From Rhodococcus qingshengii (lineage in GTDB: Bacteria; Actinomycetota; Actinomycetes; Mycobacteriales; Mycobacteriaceae): DNA of 64,000 bases. This document shows positions 15,349-24,708 of this stretch, one piece after another; position 1 is the stretch's first letter; every line of letters begins with the position of its first letter. The stretch spans positions 806,001-870,000 of the forward strand of contig NZ_JAJNCL010000001.1 in NCBI RefSeq assembly GCF_021025955.1. Direction: 5' to 3'. Both the position numbers and the translations under genes were made by a program. The notes beneath the pieces are model-generated. The model did not search any database and had not been told where the DNA came from. It was given only the letters and a program-made list of their open reading frames with translations.

Positions 15349-16476
15349 TCAAAGGTGTGAGTTGAACATGTCCAGGAGCCCTTGGGGTGCGTTCTCGCCG
15401 AAGCACATGTCCAGACCATCAGCCGACTGTCGCGCCGACGCGGCGCTGCGTGGGAAGAGTCGCTCCTCATAGGCGGCAAGTCCTTCCTCCCTTTCGCCGT
15501 ATGACGCGATCGCCTGGCCGAGCTCGGCGCCGTCGAGCATTGCCAGGTTCGCGCCCTCTCCGGCAAACGGCGACATGACATGCGCCGCGTCCCCGAGCAG
15601 AGTGACCCCGGGAGTGCGGCTCCAACTGTGCCCGATGGGAAGGGCATGGATGGGGCGAGGGGTTAGCGAGCTGTCCGCTTCGACGATCAGTGAACGCAGC
15701 GACTCGTCCCAGTCCGAGAAGTGTTCCAGCAGAATCTTCTTCGCGATGTGATCGTCGGAGAAGTCGACACTCGCTGACCAGTTCTCGGGAACTCGCAGGG
15801 CGGCATAGATGTGCAGACTGTTGTCGGTCTCACGGTGGGCTAGGAAGCCCTTGTCAGCGCTGAGCGCGAACATCATTCCGCCGCCGACTGTTTCAACGGA
15901 ACTTGCGTGCTGGTTGTCGGCGTCGTTGAGGTCGAACTCCACGAATGATATTCCGGTGTAATCCGGAGTGGCGTGTGAAACAAGTGGACGGATTTTCGAC
16001 CACGCACCGTCGGCGCCGACCAGGAGATCGGTGGTGAAGTGGGTGCCATCCGCGAGGTGGACTTCGTGTCGACCATCCGGCAACGGATGAGCACTGCGGA
16101 CCTTGGCTCCCCAGTGGATTGTTTCTTTCGGAATTGAGGTGAGCAGTAGGTCACGCAGCTGGCCGCGATCGATTTCCGGGCGGTCGCCGTCTCCGGTGTC
16201 CTGTTCGCTCAGGTGCACGACGGCATTTCGATCGAGGACGCGTGTCTCTTCACCGCCTTGATGAACGAGTGCGCGGAACTCGTCGTAGAGGCCGGCGGCA
16301 CGAAGCGCGATCTGGCCTGAGTTTTCGTGGATGTCGAGCATCCCGCCTTGAGTTCTGGCTGTCGGTCCGGATTCGAGATCGAATACCGCCGAATTGATTC
16401 CGTGCTGATGGAGGACTCGGGCGAGCGTGAGGCCACCGAGGCCGGCGCCGATGATTGCGATGGGGTAGTGGTTCAC
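15349..16476 (-). CDS. TetX-like FAD-dependent monooxygenase
   Basis: A 375-residue class A flavoprotein monooxygenase. The FAD-binding motif is IIGAGLGGLTLARVL (residues 8-22), followed by GGMLDIHENSGQIALR, which matches the GGTLDLHKGSGQEA region of Tet(X). The central DG motif is in LLVGADGAWSKIRPL, and the second FAD motif is GVTLLGDAAHVMSPFAGEG. Such enzymes hydroxylate aromatic or polyketide substrates with NADPH and O2; whether this one attacks tetracyclines or another compound cannot be told. It follows the TetR-type regulator by 9 bases on the same strand, so the pair is likely one operon controlled by the tandem palindrome at 17186-17214. Confidence 0.87.
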   Translation of the reverse strand: MNHYPIAIIGAGLGGLTLARVLHQHGINSAVFDLESGPTARTQGGMLDIHENSGQIALRAAGLYDEFRALVHQGGEETRVLDRNAVVHLSEQDTGDGDRPEIDRGQLRDLLLTSIPKETIHWGAKVRSAHPLPDGRHEVHLADGTHFTTDLLVGADGAWSKIRPLVSHATPDYTGISFVEFDLNDADNQHASSVETVGGGMMFALSADKGFLAHRETDNSLHIYAALRVPENWSASVDFSDDHIAKKILLEHFSDWDESLRSLIVEADSSLTPRPIHALPIGHSWSRTPGVTLLGDAAHVMSPFAGEGANLAMLDGAELGQAIASYGEREEGLAAYEERLFPRSAASARQSADGLDMCFGENAPQGLLDMFNSHL

Positions 16477-16485
16477 CGTGGGTTC

Positions 16486-17172
16486 CTAAGAAGTGAGAGG
16501 GGTGTTCTCGATGCCCGTAATGAGCGTTCGGAATCCCCAGGAGAGGCGTGCGGTGGGCTCCCCGGCAAGTAGGGCTGTGGCATGGCTCGCGACGAGGGGA
16601 TTCGTCTGCGGGTCTGCGTGCTGGATTGCGTCGGTCAAGGCGTTCCACCGGGCGTCCGTGTCCGAGGCGTTGTTCGGCGCCGAGTGCTCGGCAGCAGTGG
16701 ACGTCGCGTACTGAAGCAGAAGGTCCACGCCCCAGGCGGCTTGACCTGAGGGAACCTTGCCCTCGTCGAGCAATGCCAACAGGCGTTCGAGCAGGTGTAC
16801 GTAGTGAACTCCGCTTGGGCGCGAAACGAGAGCCGACTGCGCAAGGCCGGGATGATCGAACAATACGGCCGTGTAGGACGTCAAAACCCGTTCGAGGCGC
16901 GCTTGCCAAGTGCCGGAAATATTTTCGGCGAGGTCGACGACTCCGAGCAGCTCATCGAGAACCGCGGCGTGCAATTCGGCTGTGTTTCGCACGTACACGT
17001 ACAGCGACGCGGGTCCGGTGTCGAGTTCGAGGGCGAGTCGACGCATTGTCAACTTCTGCAACCCCTCCGAGCGCAAGATATCCACCGCCGCACTGACGAT
17101 GCCCTCGCGTGTCAGTGCGGGTTTGGCCGGGCGATTGCGTCGGCTCGATGGACTTGCGGGGTGAGTGGGCAT
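16486..17172 (-). CDS. TetR-family transcriptional regulator with TetR_C-like ligand domain
   Basis: A 228-residue repressor-type protein. Residues about 18-65 form the TetR helix-turn-helix (TREGIVSAAVDILRSEG, then LTMRRLALELDTGPASLYVYV). The C-terminal domain resembles the drug-binding TetR_C_1 family (ASLYVYVRNTAELHAAVLDELLG). It is first in a two-gene unit with the TetX-like monooxygenase. The region just upstream holds two identical 14-base palindromes, an obvious autoregulatory operator. By analogy with tetR/tetX-type pairs, the substrate of the monooxygenase may be the inducer (inference). Confidence 0.88.
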   Translation of the reverse strand: MPTHPASPSSRRNRPAKPALTREGIVSAAVDILRSEGLQKLTMRRLALELDTGPASLYVYVRNTAELHAAVLDELLGVVDLAENISGTWQARLERVLTSYTAVLFDHPGLAQSALVSRPSGVHYVHLLERLLALLDEGKVPSGQAAWGVDLLLQYATSTAAEHSAPNNASDTDARWNALTDAIQHADPQTNPLVASHATALLAGEPTARLSWGFRTLITGIENTPLTS

Positions 17173-18586: not shown

Positions 18587-19507
18587 TCAGAGCCCGCCGT
18601 CGAAGAACGCCGCCAGCGCCGGTGCCGGATCTGCCGCGGTGCCCATGTTTGCTACGCCGACAACGATTAATCCCAGCGTGAACAGTGCAGCGAGAACACC
18701 GATCGACCCCGACACGAATCTCGTCCGTCTGTCGGATCGCGCAGTTTTCGCGAAGCGCACCCACAACAGCACGGACACGCCGAGTGATACTGCTGCCGCG
18801 ATCAGTGCGATCACAGCCATGGCCGCGTGATATCGAGCGAAGTCGCTGATCATTAGATCGAGCGCAGGGTTTTCCTGCCCTCTGGCGCCCGTGGACTCGG
18901 CGAGCTGATACCGAACTTGACCGAGAGTATCGGCGAGTTCCCCTTCCGTCTCGCCCACGGGCAGCATCGAGATCAGCGACGAGAAGGGTGCAACGACACC
19001 TTGGACATTTGCCATCACGAGCACCGAGGAGAACAGTGCGAGGATCGTGACCAGCCCTCCCGCCGAGACGAATGCGAGTTTCTTTCCAGCCGTCAGAGGG
19101 CCGGCGTTCACGAACGACGCCTTGAGCATCCGGCCGAGTGCGAGCAGAACCGTCAGCAGGATTACCGCGATCACGGCCTTGGCCACGTGGTACCGCAGCC
19201 AGTAGTCGACAGCGGACTCCAAGCTCGGAGAGAAGGCTTGGACACCGGAACTCCAGTATTCGACGAACGCGGCGCGGACCGTCTCGACGAGTTCCCCCTG
19301 GTCTGCGTACCCATCACCCGGCCTACTGGTCACCATGCCCGGGGCGAGAACGAAGGCAACGGAGAAACCGGCGACCAACGCGATCAACGCGGCGATCTTG
19401 CGACCGGAGGACTGCGTTGATCGCGACGGCCCTGCAGTGTTGTGCCGTGAAGCATTGTGAAGTGGGATTCCTCCAGCGTGATGAGCGATCATCTGGTTAC
19501 CGTCCAC
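18587..19507 (-). CDS. Unknown four-helix membrane protein
   Basis: I do not recognise a named family. The ~300-residue protein has four hydrophobic segments, near residues 38-58, 110-130, 150-172 and 225-250, plus one close to the C-terminus. The two extracytoplasmic loops look like internal repeats: one has AVDYWLRYHVAKAVIAVILL and the other ISDFARYHAAMAVIALIAAA, each starting with an RYH motif. This suggests duplication of a two-helix unit. GTG 19507 opens the frame; ATG 19492 is an equally plausible start. Same strand as the sdaA operon, 83 bases downstream of it, with no obvious link. Confidence 0.7.
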   Translation of the reverse strand: MDGNQMIAHHAGGIPLHNASRHNTAGPSRSTQSSGRKIAALIALVAGFSVAFVLAPGMVTSRPGDGYADQGELVETVRAAFVEYWSSGVQAFSPSLESAVDYWLRYHVAKAVIAVILLTVLLALGRMLKASFVNAGPLTAGKKLAFVSAGGLVTILALFSSVLVMANVQGVVAPFSSLISMLPVGETEGELADTLGQVRYQLAESTGARGQENPALDLMISDFARYHAAMAVIALIAAAVSLGVSVLLWVRFAKTARSDRRTRFVSGSIGVLAALFTLGLIVVGVANMGTAADPAPALAAFFDGGL

Positions 19508-19590: not shown

Positions 19591-20949
19591 TCAGCACTCG
19601 ACGACATTGACTGCGAGCCCGCCCTCACTGGTTTCCTTGTAACGCACGGACATGTCGTTTCCGGTTTGTCGCATGGTCTCGATGACGGTATCGAGGCTCA
19701 CCACATGTGTCCCGTCACCCAGGTATGCGAGTTCAGCTGCGGTGACCGCAGTGGAGGCAGCGACGGCATTTCGTTCGATGCACGGGATCTGGACCAGGCC
19801 ACCAACCGGATCGCAGGTCAGCCCCAGATGGTGTTCCATGGCAATCTCAGCTGCATTCTCGATTTGTCGTGGCGATCCGCCCATGACAGCGCACAAGCCG
19901 GCCGCCGCCATCGCGCAGGCAGCTCCGACTTCGCCTTGGCACCCCGCCTCCGCGCCCGAGATCGAGGCATTCGCCTTGATGATCGATCCGATTGCGGCTG
20001 CGGTGAGGAGAAAGGTTCGGACGTCGTGAACGCCGGCGCCCGTCGCGCGTATGTGGTGATAGAGCACCGCAGGCACGATGCCTGCGGCACCGTTCGTCGG
20101 AGCCGTTACCACGCGGCCACCTGCTGCATTTTCTTCGTTGACCGCCATGGCGTAGACGGTCAGCCACTCGCGTGAAGAGGGGGCGCAGTTACGTTGTTCC
20201 AGTTGAATGTTCGCAGACCGTGCTCTTCGGCGAACTCCGAGACGCCCGGGCAATACACCTTCGGTATGGGAACCACGCTCGATGCAGGCGCGCATCGCGG
20301 ACCAGATCGCGTCGATGCCGGCGAATGTCCGATCCTGGCCGTGTATCGCGAGTTCGTCAGACAGTGCCAGTTCGGCGATAGTTCCGGAACCGCATTCCGC
20401 CAGTAGCTCTTTCGCGGTTCGATAGCGTGAGTTGATCGAATGCGCGCTTACTTGCGTCTGAGTTCCGGCGCGCAGTACGAATCCGCCACCGATCGACAGA
20501 TATATACTCGTATAAACGATTTCGTGACCGTTGAAGGCGTTCAGTGTCATCGAGTTGGGGTGCCCGTGACGGCGAACGAGCGGCTCGAACACCATGTCCT
20601 CGTGAGTGAACACTACGTGTTCGAGTGGGCCGCCGACGAGCATCACCGATCCGCCGTCCGACAGCTCGGCCCATCGCCCGTGAACGTTGGTCGGCTCGCA
20701 CGTTTCAGGATCCAACCCACGAAGTCCCGCGATCACCGCGTCGGGAGTGCAGTGGCCTATTCCGGTGGCGGCGAGAGAGCCGTGCAGATTGCAGCGAATT
20801 CGGTCGACCGACGCGGTCAAGCCGGCGGCGGAGAGCTCGCCGACAAAAGTGCGGGCAGCGCGCATCGGACCGACCGTGTGTGAACTGGAGGGCCCGATGC
20901 CGACGGAGAAGAATTCGAGAGCGGAAACATAGACGCCGGTGGTGCTCAT
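19591..20949 (-). CDS. sdaA: L-serine ammonia-lyase, iron-sulfur dependent, single chain
   Basis: Deaminates L-serine to pyruvate and ammonia with a [4Fe-4S] cluster acting as Lewis acid. At 452 residues it is the fused bacterial type (beta plus alpha domains). The N-terminal [17 protein letters not shown] is the family signature, and cluster cysteines are expected in [19 protein letters not shown] and IPCIERNA. The protein ends in Cys, as in single-chain enzymes where the C-terminal residue reaches the active site. Its ATG overlaps the stop of the M20 amidohydrolase gene by 4 bases, so the two are translationally coupled, making it the terminal step of the operon. Confidence 0.94.
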
Positions 20950-22160
20950 TCGGCGCTCGTGACGGTGGTCGCTCCTGACTCGCGCTGGGCCGCAATCGTC
21001 AGGAGGTTGGAGCGCGAGTCCCCGGTGGCGGCTCGGATCACTGTGCGCGCCATCGCAATTGCTCCGTGCAGAACAGCTTCGTCGCCCGCTGCCGAGCGGG
21101 CATCAGCGGCAAACTTGATCGTGTGAGGAACTCCGGTAACGCCGCGTAACGCGATCATCGGGTGGATCGAGGGAACCGCCTTCGACACGTTGCCCATGTC
21201 TGTCGAGCCGCCTGTCAGGGGAGTTCGGGCGGCCGCGGTGCGGCCCAGGCTCGCGATCTCCTCGTCCCAGATCGTCGCCAGCACGCGATGTTGAACAAGC
21301 TCCTCGTAGCGAGGTTCGGCGCGTTCGGTTGACCAGGAGCAGTCGCTGGCCACAGCTGCGCCCTCGAAGCAGGCGAGCATGCGACGCTTGGCGTCCAATA
21401 GAACGTCGAGTTCTGCGGCCCGAACTTCCGCTCGCACCAACGTCGAGGCCGGAATGATGTTTGTTGCTTCGCCGCCGTGCTCGACGTAGGCGTTCAGTCT
21501 GACGTCGGACTGAAGTTGTTGGCGGAGGAGTCCGATGGCAACCAAGGCGATCGTGGCGGCGTCACCTGCGTTGATGCCCTTGTGTGGCGCAGCGGCGGCG
21601 TGTGCGGCTCTTCCGGTGTAGGTCACATCGAACCGATCGACTGCCTGCGTTCTGGTGGCGGTGCAACTGACGTCTTCGCCTGCAGCGCCGTGGACCATGA
21701 TCGACATCGCCGCACCCTCCCATGCGCCACGTTCGAGCAGCAAGACTTTTCCGCCACCATGTTCCTCGGCCGGCGTACCGAGGAGGACGACGGTCAGGCC
21801 GTGTTCCTCAGCGACCTCTCCGAGCGCGATAGCTGCTCCCAGTCCGGCAGCTGCGATGACATTGTGTCCACACGCATGACCGATGTCGGGAAGGGCGTCG
21901 TACTCGGCGCAAACGACGACGCGGAAGGGGCCGGAGCCTCGCACCGCTTCGAATGCGGTCTCGAGGCCGTAGGCGGCGCGAGTAACCGCGAAGCCGGCTT
22001 CCTGCGCGGCGTCCGCCAAGAGGGCCGACGCCCGATGCTCTTCGAATGCCAACTCTGGGTGAGCATGGATGGTGTGGCTGACGTCGATGAGGCGAGATGT
22101 CCACTTCTCGATCGTGCTCGAAACCGAGTCGGTGGGGGTGAGGGTGTCAGCGATGGACAT
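20946..22160 (-). CDS. M20-family amidohydrolase / aminoacylase
   Basis: A 404-residue zinc peptidase-like hydrolase of the M20D group (IAA-amino acid, N-acyl-amino acid and AbgB-like amidases). Visible are HAHPELAFEEHRAS near the N-terminus, DIGHACGHNVIAAAGLG with Cys/His metal ligands, GTPAEEHGGGK with a Glu pair, and a dimerisation-domain HGGEATNIIP. Such enzymes cleave an amide bond between an acyl or aryl group and an amino acid or glutamate. The overlapping downstream gene, L-serine dehydratase, suggests that the product could be serine (inference). Upstream on the same strand, 68 bases away, is a DUF3100 membrane transporter. Confidence 0.88.
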   Translation of the reverse strand: MSIADTLTPTDSVSSTIEKWTSRLIDVSHTIHAHPELAFEEHRASALLADAAQEAGFAVTRAAYGLETAFEAVRGSGPFRVVVCAEYDALPDIGHACGHNVIAAAGLGAAIALGEVAEEHGLTVVLLGTPAEEHGGGKVLLLERGAWEGAAMSIMVHGAAGEDVSCTATRTQAVDRFDVTYTGRAAHAAAAPHKGINAGDAATIALVAIGLLRQQLQSDVRLNAYVEHGGEATNIIPASTLVRAEVRAAELDVLLDAKRRMLACFEGAAVASDCSWSTERAEPRYEELVQHRVLATIWDEEIASLGRTAAARTPLTGGSTDMGNVSKAVPSIHPMIALRGVTGVPHTIKFAADARSAAGDEAVLHGAIAMARTVIRAATGDSRSNLLTIAAQRESGATTVTSAE

Positions 22161-22228
22161 GGAAATTGTTTCCTTTCAACGTCTTTTGTTCTCTGTATCT
22201 TTGGATCGCGGTGTCTTTGCGTGCAGTT

Positions 22229-23572
22229 CTAATGCCAGAGGCCGAGCGCGAACTCCGCGACGACCACGGAAAGTAGGTAAGAGGCGAGGATCGCGACGAT
22301 TCCGACGGGGACGATCTTCCAGCCGATCGTCTTGAGCAAGGGAAGGTCCTTGCCGAGGCTGAGACCTGCGACAGTCAAGGTGAGGGTGCAGATCGAGAGA
22401 AAATCGACGGTACCGACGGTGCTCGAGGCGAAGTCGCTGATGGGGGACCACGGAGTGGTCGCCAAGGCGCCGATGGTGATAATTGCGATCATCGCCGCGA
22501 TCTTGCCGCGCGTCAGGCGGGCCACGCCGACGCCCAGGAGCAACAATCCGGTGAGGATCAGGTAACCGACGATGATCGATCGAGATACGCCACCCGCTGC
22601 GATCGAGGAGACGATGACCCCACCGACGAACAGAATCGGAACGATGGTGGTCAGCGGCACGGTGACGCTCGGCGCAACCGCTTGTGGTGCAGTGTCGGCT
22701 TTCCGTTCGCTGGTCGCCTTCGAACGCTTGGTGAGTGCGCCGTAGATTCGATCGGCAAGCGGGAGTGCGACATACATGCCGACATACACGCCGAGGAGGC
22801 CGGTGATGATGTTGGATGTGGCCGCCACGGCGAGGACCTGGTCGGCCATCTCGGGGTGCGCCGAAACGACGCTGGCGGCGGCGGCAGCCATCATCGAGCC
22901 GGATCCGACCCCAGCGCCCATTGCCAACGCGAGGGGGTCAAAGATGTTGAAGGATGTAGCCAGCGACGCAATCAGGCTGATCAGCACGGCACCGAACAGA
23001 GTGCCGAAGACGTACATCGACAGGACTCCACGGTACTGGTCGGAATCGGGTCCGTAGCGTTCGCTGACCATCGCGAACGACCCCTCGCGGTCGATGGAAA
23101 AGGTTGCTCCGACGGTGGCCGGTCCCATCCGAAGGAGTACCGCCAGCGGGAGTGCAAGAGCGATAGTGCCGAACAAGTGCCCCAGTTCCTGCAGTAGCAG
23201 TGCGGGGCCCGCCTCGAACAACAGTTGGATGTTCGGGCCGATGGTGAAAGACAATCTTGCGCAAAGAAAGAGAACAGCCAGGCCCATGATTGCCGAGGCT
23301 GCGGCCTGAAGATCGAGGCCGAGAGGTTTCCACTTCTGACTCGAGACGACACCGCCGGCAATCAGTCCCCACACCATGGGCAAGATCGTGATGGCGGCAG
23401 CGCCGACGGGAATCACTGCAGGGCCGATCAGTTGGGCGCCTGCCGCAAGCCCGAGGAGCAGAATCACCACGATCCACAGGCGTGGTGACCGCATGGCGAA
23501 AACGACCTTTTGCATCGCGGTTTGATCGCTGACCGGAGAATCGTCATGCGAGACAGGGAATGCTTCGGTCAT
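22229..23572 (-). CDS. DUF3100-family membrane transporter
   Basis: A 447-residue integral membrane protein with about ten to eleven hydrophobic segments, a charged cytoplasmic loop around residues 285-310 and no ATP-binding or carboxy-terminal domains. I recognise it as DUF3100, a family often found beside M20 amidohydrolases; its substrate is not established to my knowledge. It heads the operon DUF3100-M20-sdaA and is divergent from a double Lrp/AsnC-type regulator. A role in taking up the amide that the M20 enzyme cleaves is plausible. Start ATG 23572; alternatives downstream would remove the short cytosolic N-terminus only. Confidence 0.82.
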   Translation of the reverse strand: MTEAFPVSHDDSPVSDQTAMQKVVFAMRSPRLWIVVILLLGLAAGAQLIGPAVIPVGAAAITILPMVWGLIAGGVVSSQKWKPLGLDLQAAASAIMGLAVLFLCARLSFTIGPNIQLLFEAGPALLLQELGHLFGTIALALPLAVLLRMGPATVGATFSIDREGSFAMVSERYGPDSDQYRGVLSMYVFGTLFGAVLISLIASLATSFNIFDPLALAMGAGVGSGSMMAAAAASVVSAHPEMADQVLAVAATSNIITGLLGVYVGMYVALPLADRIYGALTKRSKATSERKADTAPQAVAPSVTVPLTTIVPILFVGGVIVSSIAAGGVSRSIIVGYLILTGLLLLGVGVARLTRGKIAAMIAIITIGALATTPWSPISDFASSTVGTVDFLSICTLTLTVAGLSLGKDLPLLKTIGWKIVPVGIVAILASYLLSVVVAEFALGLWH

Positions 23573-23721
23573 GTCGGTGTCTTTCTCGAGGGGGCGAACG
23601 AACGCAAGAAGTAAGCGTTCTCGAGGTTCAGGATTTGGTGGACTATTGATGTGATGAAGTTAGGATCAACGCCTTTCGATCCCTGTTTCGGTGCAGCATT
23701 CTTTTGAAAGTGAGGTTCTCG

Positions 23722-24708
23722 GTGCAGGATCAGATGCTCAGGGACGAAGATCTTCGACTGTTGAACGCACTGCAGATCAGGCCACGAGCGTCGTGGTCCG
23801 AGCTTTCACGCGCGATCGGTTCCGACCCGGTCACCCTGACCAGGCGTTGGGAGCGTCTGCACTCGCAAGGAATAGCGTGGATCGCTGCGTACCGTGGGGG
23901 TCCCATCGTGTCGGCGACCGCACTTCTCGAGATCGAATGCGCACCGGCACAGACCCTGAGCGTTGCCGAACAGATCGCGCACGATCCCGAAGTTCTCACA
24001 GTCGATCTCACCACCGGCAATCGGGATCTGCTCGTCACGCTCACCTGCACTGACCTCGATCAATTGTCCCGGTACGTGTTGGAGCGAACACGATCGCTGC
24101 CGACGATCACCGCGATGCGAACTCAGATCGTGTCCTCGGCGAACTCCGACGCACGAAACTGGCGTCTACGTGCTCTCGATGCGGAAGAAATTGCCGCGCT
24201 CGAGTCGGCCCCGGCGGCGAAGATCCGTGGTGTACGCGCCAGCGAAGAGGAACAGTCGCAGCTGTTCGAGATCCTTTCTCGCGAACCACGAATTACCGTC
24301 TCGGCACTCGCTGCAGCACTCGGAGTCACGCCGGCTCGCGCCGGGGCGCTCCTTTCTCACGAGCTGTCGACGGGGCGTCTTGTCGTCCGCACGGAGATTG
24401 CTCGGCCATACTCCGGTTGGCCGGTTTACGCCTGGTACTTCTTACGTCTCGACGGGCGAAAGGAGGCAATTGCTCAGCGCCTTTCCCACCTGCGTGAGGC
24501 GAGGCTTGTTGCTTCTACGATCGGCAGCTACGACATCGCATTGGCGGTGTGGCTGCGCTCGATCGACGACGTGCAGCGTTTGGAAGGTTATCTCGCCGAG
24601 CAGTTTCCGGGCGTATCCGTGGTGGACCGGTCGATCGTCCTGCGTACGCCGCATCACCTACATCGAACGATCGATGTGTCTGGTCGAAGCATGCCGAAGC
24701 ACGGGTGA
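23722..24708 (+). CDS. Lrp/AsnC-family regulator with two tandem AsnC units
   Basis: A 328-residue regulator, about twice the usual Lrp size. The first helix-turn-helix (about 8-55) reads LRLLNALQIRPRASWSELSRAIGSD and is followed by a RAM-type effector domain (TALLEIECAPAQTLSVAEQIA). A second helix-turn-helix (LFEILSREPRITVSALAAALG) and second RAM domain (VYAWYFLRLDG, ASTIGSYDIALAVWL) complete it. GTG 23722 has AAAGTGAGG six bases upstream; TTG 23704 and ATG 23734 are alternatives. Divergent from the DUF3100-M20-sdaA operon, with a 150-base gap between. It is the likely regulator, perhaps responding to serine or another amino acid. Confidence 0.85.
   Translation: MQDQMLRDEDLRLLNALQIRPRASWSELSRAIGSDPVTLTRRWERLHSQGIAWIAAYRGGPIVSATALLEIECAPAQTLSVAEQIAHDPEVLTVDLTTGNRDLLVTLTCTDLDQLSRYVLERTRSLPTITAMRTQIVSSANSDARNWRLRALDAEEIAALESAPAAKIRGVRASEEEQSQLFEILSREPRITVSALAAALGVTPARAGALLSHELSTGRLVVRTEIARPYSGWPVYAWYFLRLDGRKEAIAQRLSHLREARLVASTIGSYDIALAVWLRSIDDVQRLEGYLAEQFPGVSVVDRSIVLRTPHHLHRTIDVSGRSMPKHG

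Follow-up and report, generated by a model that had tools for sequence, protein, structure and literature searches.

In Escherichia coli, the abgR-abgABT system is devoted to the utilization of p-aminobenzoyl-glutamate, which involves the AbgT transporter and a two-subunit hydrolase, with glutamate as the product and no deaminase. HmrA of Staphylococcus aureus, an M20 enzyme, is a carboxydipeptidase for Met-X dipeptides according to a title in the reference list of PMC11511702. The window analyzed here, a 64,000-nucleotide stretch of Rhodococcus qingshengii DNA, contains a locus in which four intact open reading frames are arranged as follows:

19591-20949, minus strand: sdaA, 452 aa, monomeric [4Fe-4S] L-serine ammonia-lyase; final gene of the presumed operon
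20946-22160, minus strand: 404-aa M20 metallopeptidase, HmrA/Xaa-Arg dipeptidase type; TIGR01891, PF01546, PF07687
22229-23572, minus strand: DUF3100 membrane protein, 447 aa, PF11299, predicted elevator-type secondary transporter; opening gene of the presumed operon
23573-23703, no strand: divergent intergenic region, 131 bases; presumed home of the regulator site and of both promoters
23704-24708, plus strand: divergent regulator of 334 aa starting at TTG, double Lrp/AsnC type with the ligand-binding stretch present twice

The M20 gene and sdaA share four bases (ATGA, 20946-20949), and 68 bases separate the DUF3100 and M20 genes; this spacing suggests that the three minus-strand genes form a single transcript. 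The four-gene layout and the overlap given in the sequence-only reading are confirmed by the open frames, the profile matches and the coordinates. No description of this gene set (Lrp, DUF3100, M20, SdaA) and no mention of DUF3100 or PF11299 was found among the open-licence PMC papers searched.

SdaA scores 549.8 bits against TIGR00720 (cut-off 345.1), which places it over the curated equivalog threshold, and also matches PF03313 and PF03315. Its nearest PDB chain is the L-serine dehydratase 4rqo (E 1.1e-118), and Cys337, 379, 390 and 452, which I take to be the ligands of the iron-sulfur cluster, are kept in 21/21 aligned rows. A link between SdaA and SUF-type Fe-S assembly was considered and discarded: the neighbors at L046 and L084 are transport genes and an aminotransferase, and a SufB/D-type gene is found in L143 only. 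The M20 protein exceeds the TIGR01891 cut-off (183.7 bits versus 153.75). Its closest solved relatives are HmrA (3ram, 8e-52) and the Xaa-Arg dipeptidase (7yh4, 5.7e-47), the latter presumably PM20D2, and its best three PDB matches, all from this group, lie far above 3io1, 1xmb and 6slf. Seven residues, presumably the metal ligands (C97, H99, E132, E133, H157, H187 and H346), are identical in 51 aligned rows, 21 from SdaA-linked and 30 from RpiR-linked loci. The regulator carries PF01037 in two stretches and the AsnC-type helix-turn-helix PF13404 once, as befits an Lrp/AsnC protein; a second winged helix is hinted at by a weak MarR_2 match at 185-229, under the Pfam cut-off. The 131-base divergent region is nearly identical across four Rhodococcus genomes, and comparison of these four sequences did not single out an operator; an AACGC-N9-GCGTT inverted repeat spotted by eye upstream of DUF3100 was rejected, as it is not conserved in all four. 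Searches for promoters and terminators gave no signal exceeding shuffles, and a sigma-70-like site was not found.

The third minus-strand protein belongs to PF11299 (288.4 bits, gathering cut-off 27) rather than to the AbgT family, and no other Pfam family matches it at E 0.001. Its sequence gave chance matches only in the PDB. DUF3100 is predicted to be a secondary transporter of the elevator type, with a putative CitS/NhaA/ASBT-like fold; the structure alignment covered 56 of the 80 surveyed loci plus the window. Sequence identity to CitS, NhaA/NhaP-type exchangers and ASBT-type transporters is 8-15%, with a Foldseek E-value that is not significant, and such a fold gives no substrate. Members of the family are known from haloarchaea, actinobacteria, proteobacteria (E. 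coli and Klebsiella plasmids among them) and a Sporosarcina.

The sequence-only reading proposed counting how often DUF3100, M20 and sdaA co-occur, and would have been refuted had DUF3100-M20 pairs never accompanied a serine dehydratase elsewhere. Among the best 80 of 504 DUF3100 loci, searched for neighbors within 6 kb, M20 is present in 70, a homologue of the regulator in 35 and SdaA in 21. All four genes are together in 19, and one further locus has DUF3100, M20 and SdaA; the refuting case did not arise. Their orders are Lrp|DUF-M20-SDA (6 loci), Lrp|M20-DUF-SDA (10), M20-DUF-SDA with a co-directional Lrp (1), SDA-M20|Lrp-DUF (2) and SDA-M20-DUF (1). About 0.4 SdaA-linked loci would be expected by chance, assuming some 1.5 SdaA copies per genome of about 4 Mb and a 13 kb search space. 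Within the genus, DUF3100 occurs in 5/28 genomes, the window's own included; all five carry the complete set, one of them at only 45-54% identity. The four-gene arrangement therefore exceeds chance, given these five complete genomes out of five and the 21 SdaA-linked loci. A search for relatives centered on G363 yielded little.

SdaA is, moreover, associated with the regulator: it occurs in 19/35 Lrp-bearing loci versus 2/45 Lrp-free ones (Fisher p 8e-7, uncorrected for kinship). When the labels are mapped on a tree of DUF3100 proteins, SDA requires at least nine changes without eight contig-cut rows (12 with them), by contrast with only two for Lrp versus RpiR/dehydrogenase; the SdaA-DUF3100 link has therefore been repeatedly kept, lost or regained. 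L051, which has a single stop within the match, was excluded from the tree and from the 79-row label count, and retained in the 80-locus table. The presence of SdaA elsewhere in the genome was also considered as support: for Lrp-linked loci devoid of a local SdaA, 11/11 genomes tested have one elsewhere. This was not counted as evidence because 17/18 genomes of the other loci have SdaA too (G740 is in both sets).

The slots of the unit can be filled by other families. Three Rhodococcus genomes without a DUF3100 match (G006, G009, G027) have the organization Lrp|MFS-M20-M20-SDA, with identities of 55-56% for M20, 58-60% for SDA and 38-39% for Lrp. Of the eight SdaA neighborhoods fetched from the genus, three have this MFS-type unit and five lack it; in two of the latter (L129, L133) an adjacent gene among those scanned encodes serine hydroxymethyltransferase. 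Ten further M20 neighborhoods contained Lrp in four cases, DUF3100 in one and SdaA in none; an MFS gene lies between Lrp and M20 in two of the four, and one of these two stops at a contig edge. Conversely, the enzymes are replaced in two Sulfitobacter species, where genes annotated as threonine/serine dehydratase and Rid adjoin an aspartoacylase-family gene and a DUF3100 split in two parts. DUF3100, SdaA and M20 also recur in another phylum, as DUF3100a-DUF3100b-SDA-M20 on one strand of a plasmid of the alphaproteobacterium Tistrella, and in Agrobacterium leguminum, where SdaA and M20 are close to DUF3100. The genes flanking the unit vary from genus to genus; some loci have iron-linked neighbors, namely siderophore-type ABC genes (L084), a DyP peroxidase (L047, L103) and an imelysin (L103). 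The several orders, both swaps and the alphaproteobacterial recurrence support the proposal that transporter, amide hydrolase, serine deaminase and amino-acid-type regulator work as one functional unit.

The most probable explanation, in which I have reasonable but not high confidence, is that these genes form an operon for the catabolism of an amide that contains serine. DUF3100 would carry this compound, presumably inward; the HmrA-type M20 enzyme would cut its amide bond and thereby free L-serine, which SdaA would convert to pyruvate and ammonia; and the double-Lrp regulator may control the operon by sensing serine or the conjugate. The computed support consists of the genes themselves, intact catalytic residues, conserved linkage and the slot swaps. 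The sequence-only reading named N-acyl-serine or a serine peptide as the substrate. A serine dipeptide appears at least as likely, because M20 is nearest to HmrA and the Xaa-Arg dipeptidase and not to aryl- or acyl-amino-acid hydrolases; an Xaa-Ser or Ser-Xaa dipeptide would thus be the first guess, and N-acyl-serine the second.

That M20 accompanies DUF3100 far more often than SdaA does, and that its closest solved relatives are dipeptidase-like, would also suit a general importer and hydrolase of peptides or acyl-amino acids that is largely indifferent to serine, SdaA having been recruited since serine, one of several released residues, most often needs disposal. Other neighbors of DUF3100 point the same way: an aminotransferase (L112), a DAO-type oxidoreductase near M20 (L099) and dehydrogenases. 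I nevertheless consider this rather unlikely, as the Lrp-linked class has SdaA in 19/35 loci and a hydroxyacid plus aldehyde dehydrogenase pair in none, and as 16 columns, each fixed at 90% or more within its own group, distinguish SdaA-linked from RpiR-linked M20s, which suggests class-specific specificity.

That dehydrogenase pair is present in 29/80 DUF3100 loci, from actinobacteria and alpha/betaproteobacteria. Because these loci have the pair instead, DUF3100 is not serine-specific and is better read as a carrier of amide-type substrates, serine conjugates being one class. The function that the sequence-only reading offered for DUF3100 was thus too narrow. Two or more catabolic programs share this transporter family, which cautions against a serine-based family name. 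A broader hypothesis, which I advance tentatively, is that DUF3100 proteins are widespread, unrecognized elevator transporters devoted to conjugates in which a hydroxylated amino or carboxylic acid is held by an amide link, with two downstream modules setting the fate of the product: SdaA (or threonine/serine dehydratase plus Rid) for serine, and, for a second product that bears a hydroxymethyl group, a beta-hydroxyacid dehydrogenase together with an aldehyde dehydrogenase. If so, the dehydrogenase class could be a catabolic route without a known gene. Pantothenate, whose breakdown involves an amidase and then oxidation of pantoate, is one candidate substrate for this class. Its candidacy comes from this biochemistry; PMC10393543 says only that the pantothenate hydrolase was unidentified in 2023.

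It is improbable that DUF3100 carries free serine or the product pyruvate while M20 has a separate role, for instance in the turnover of dipeptides inside the cell. This Rhodococcus genome has no second SdaA, so that the locus could be a general serine utilization locus, and free amino acids are common ligands of Lrp-type regulators; however, M20 remains with DUF3100 at most loci without SdaA, the SdaA-M20 pairing survives replacement of DUF3100 by MFS, and a serine carrier leaves the dehydrogenase-linked class unexplained. A serine-bearing specialized molecule, such as the 2,3-dihydroxybenzoyl-serine of catechol siderophores or an acyl-serine lipid, is highly improbable: aryl/acyl amide hydrolases are among the M20 relatives, with much weaker scores, and iron-linked genes adjoin some loci, but flanks differ between genera and the neighbor families scanned include no recurrent aromatic or fatty-acid degradation gene.

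For DUF3100, a family of unknown function, the conserved, slot-swapping neighborhood narrows the compounds worth testing to a few. Among described proteins, SdaA resembles the monomeric L-serine dehydratase 4rqo, aligning over its full length to the C-terminal cysteine, and differs in gene placement, as it sits here with an amidase and a transporter. The locus is like abgR-abgABT in that a regulator, a dedicated secondary transporter and an M20 amide hydrolase form one unit. It differs by its transporter family and by the addition of a deaminase, and its M20 enzyme matches the aminobenzoyl-glutamate utilization protein 3io1 only weakly.

The four-gene set described in the sequence-only reading was confirmed: all four open frames are intact, and each family assignment was supported by a profile match.

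19591-20949, minus strand: sdaA, L-serine ammonia-lyase (TIGR00720, 549.8 bits)
20946-22160, minus strand: M20 peptidase gene (TIGR01891, 183.7 bits)
22229-23572, minus strand: DUF3100 gene (PF11299, 288.4 bits)
23704-24708, plus strand, divergent: 334-aa regulator with two Lrp/AsnC ligand-binding stretches, one well-defined HTH and a second, weak one

The 4-base overlap of the M20 gene and sdaA is a real ATGA overlap. The R. qingshengii genome (6.48 Mb, 48 contigs) has one DUF3100 match and one SdaA match, both at this locus; among named relatives, Rhodococcus erythropolis NBRC 15567 comes nearest (98% for DUF3100). Since SdaA is the sole copy in the genome, the locus may be used for free serine as well. 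Just downstream of sdaA, a 306-aa protein (18587-19507) gave no Pfam or NCBIfam match, and its cluster was seen only in close Rhodococcus loci. The region 15349-17172 holds a FAD-binding monooxygenase-type gene (PF01494), adjoined by a regulator of TetR-like appearance, as judged by eye.

DUF3100 is rare and patchy, being above cut-off in just 4 of the 396 genomes of the phylum sample. It was found in 5 of 28 Rhodococcus genomes, the window's own counted, and all 5 hold all four genes; three of the other sets are 94-99% identical to that of the window, and the fifth is only 45-54% identical and has different flanks. An 84,980-species collection scanned with a nine-sequence DUF3100 alignment gave 504 relatives. 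Neighbours within 6 kb of DUF3100 were counted at the best 80 of these 504 loci, a sample in which actinobacteria are over-represented and three loci (L026, L027, L105) match genomes of the genus search (G002, G001, G026) and are thus not new evidence. M20 was present at 70 of the 80 loci, Lrp at 35, RpiR at 34 and SdaA at 21, the last against about 0.4 expected by chance (my own arithmetic); a hydroxyacid dehydrogenase and an aldehyde dehydrogenase occurred together, at the same 29 loci. SdaA, Lrp and M20 were all near DUF3100 at 19 loci, which bears out the co-occurrence of DUF3100, M20 and sdaA across genomes. Gene order has shifted while the members stayed together: Lrp is divergent from DUF3100-M20-SdaA at 6 loci and from M20-DUF3100-SdaA at 10, is co-directional with M20-DUF3100-SdaA at 1, and heads Lrp-DUF3100 divergent from SdaA-M20 at 2; one further locus has SdaA-M20-DUF3100 without Lrp. 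At one locus (L038) SdaA is split over two open frames.

Some results speak against the link to SdaA. SdaA was absent within 6 kb at 16 of the 35 Lrp-linked loci, three of them cut by contig ends. It was found elsewhere in 11 of 11 genomes checked among these 16. However, genome-level presence is non-discriminating, because 17 of the 18 genomes of other DUF3100 loci also carry SdaA (two of the 18, G740 and G756, also have an Lrp-linked locus); the background in the class is 110 of 340 genomes. In Rhodococcus, SdaA was matched in 15 of 28 genomes, once by a short fragment, and 10 of these 15 lack DUF3100. On the DUF3100 tree, built by a quick method with branch support by SH-aLRT alone, the SdaA label requires 12 or more changes when all 80 rows are used, 8 of them forced by starred branches, and 9 or more over the 72 rows left after removal of contig-cut loci. 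SdaA has therefore been repeatedly gained or lost by the Lrp class. By contrast, 2 changes (70 rows) suffice to separate Lrp from RpiR/dehydrogenase neighbourhoods, which are thus old and separate classes.

The strongest evidence for the putative roles in transport, amide cleavage and serine deamination is that each part has elsewhere given way to an unrelated protein that fills the same role. In Rhodococcus, three genomes that lack a DUF3100 match (G006, G009, G027) have Lrp divergent from an MFS transporter, a second M20, M20 and SdaA, with an aldehyde dehydrogenase after SdaA; the enzyme in that position in neighbourhood L128 is of the succinic semialdehyde type. Identity to the window proteins is 58-60% for SdaA, 55-56% for M20 and 38-39% for Lrp, and the MFS-linked SdaA is in these genomes the one most like that of the window. 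This unit makes up 3 of the 8 SdaA neighbourhoods taken from the genus, the M20 unit being absent from the other 5. Ten further M20 neighbourhoods contained Lrp in 4, DUF3100 in 1, an MFS gene between Lrp and M20 in 2 (one stops at a contig edge) and SdaA in none. In two Sulfitobacter species, a two-part DUF3100 is flanked by a Rid protein, a deaminase that carries the annotation threonine/serine dehydratase, and an amidase assigned in the annotation to the aspartoacylase family. Two Actinacidiphila loci (L085, L097) have an Lrp homologue without M20; at L085, the one scanned, an Amidohydro_1 protein gene precedes DUF3100. Tistrella mobilis has DUF3100a-DUF3100b-SdaA-M20 on one strand, and in Agrobacterium leguminum DUF3100 adjoins a dehydrogenase and has SdaA and M20 a few kb away. 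On an Agrobacterium plasmid, a threonylcarbamoyl-AMP synthase-like gene (L019, 1560-2534) lies between SdaA and M20. Linkage and slot swaps thus support well the functional unit implied by the serine-amide reading; its chemistry, namely uptake of a serine amide, release of serine by M20 and deamination to pyruvate, is an inference.

Extending this function to the whole DUF3100 family is not supported, given the dehydrogenase pair at 29 of the 80 loci and SdaA at 21. The second unit (e.g. L052, L056, L062, L066, L077, L092) combines RpiR and an enzyme resembling 3-hydroxyisobutyrate dehydrogenase with an aldehyde dehydrogenase, DUF3100 and, at 25 of the 29 loci, M20; it was seen in Arthrobacter, Pseudarthrobacter, Streptomyces, Leucobacter and others. 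Lrp stood beside RpiR or the dehydrogenase at none of the 80 loci, and SdaA beside the dehydrogenase type once (L091), in antisense orientation some 3 kb downstream, which could be a chance placement. The dehydrogenase accompanied DUF3100 at 14 of 26 further loci examined, and at 13 of these the aldehyde dehydrogenase was there too, in Paraburkholderia, Caballeronia, Burkholderia, Ensifer, Ochrobactrum, Paracoccus, Agrobacterium and others, including alpha- and betaproteobacterial plasmids. The class dehydrogenases scanned fell below the curated cut-offs of all families listed. Since Leucobacter sp. wl10 (L065, L092) and Saccharopolyspora oryzae (L060, L075) each hold both classes, these are probably not redundant.

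In some proteobacteria and one archaeon (L022, L024, L106-L112, L154-L158), neighbouring genes for products of about 270 and 155 aa take the place of a single DUF3100 gene, which means that the Pfam domain spans no more than the initial part of the transporter. DUF3100 also occurs on conjugative enterobacterial plasmids of E. coli (L106), where M20 and a TdcA-annotated LysR regulator accompany it, and of Klebsiella (L020).

SdaA Cys337, 379, 390 and 452, which I take to be the cluster-binding residues, are kept in 21 of 21 rows, and the alignment with 4rqo runs through the C-terminal Cys. M20 residues C97, H99, E132, E133, H157, H187 and H346 are identical in 21 SdaA-linked and 30 RpiR-linked rows; 16 other columns are fixed differently between these groups, and there the M20 of the 11 Lrp rows without SdaA is mostly like the SdaA-linked group. 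M20 relatives 44-46% identical have RidA, DUF1028 and a FAD oxidoreductase as neighbours (L114, 5914-8522, and L115), and in Streptomyces SAT1 genes for aspartate ammonia-lyase and an MFS transporter come after such a relative, making a parallel unit of amidase and amino-acid lyase. The best PDB matches of the window M20 are HmrA (8e-52), which the title of a work cited in a review (PMC11511702) names a carboxydipeptidase for Met-X dipeptides, and an Xaa-Arg dipeptidase (5.7e-47), with aminobenzoyl-glutamate, IAA-amino-acid and acyl-glutamine hydrolases scoring far lower. Of the two substrates first proposed, this likeness tilts the balance away from N-acyl-serine and to a serine dipeptide, though it does not settle the choice.
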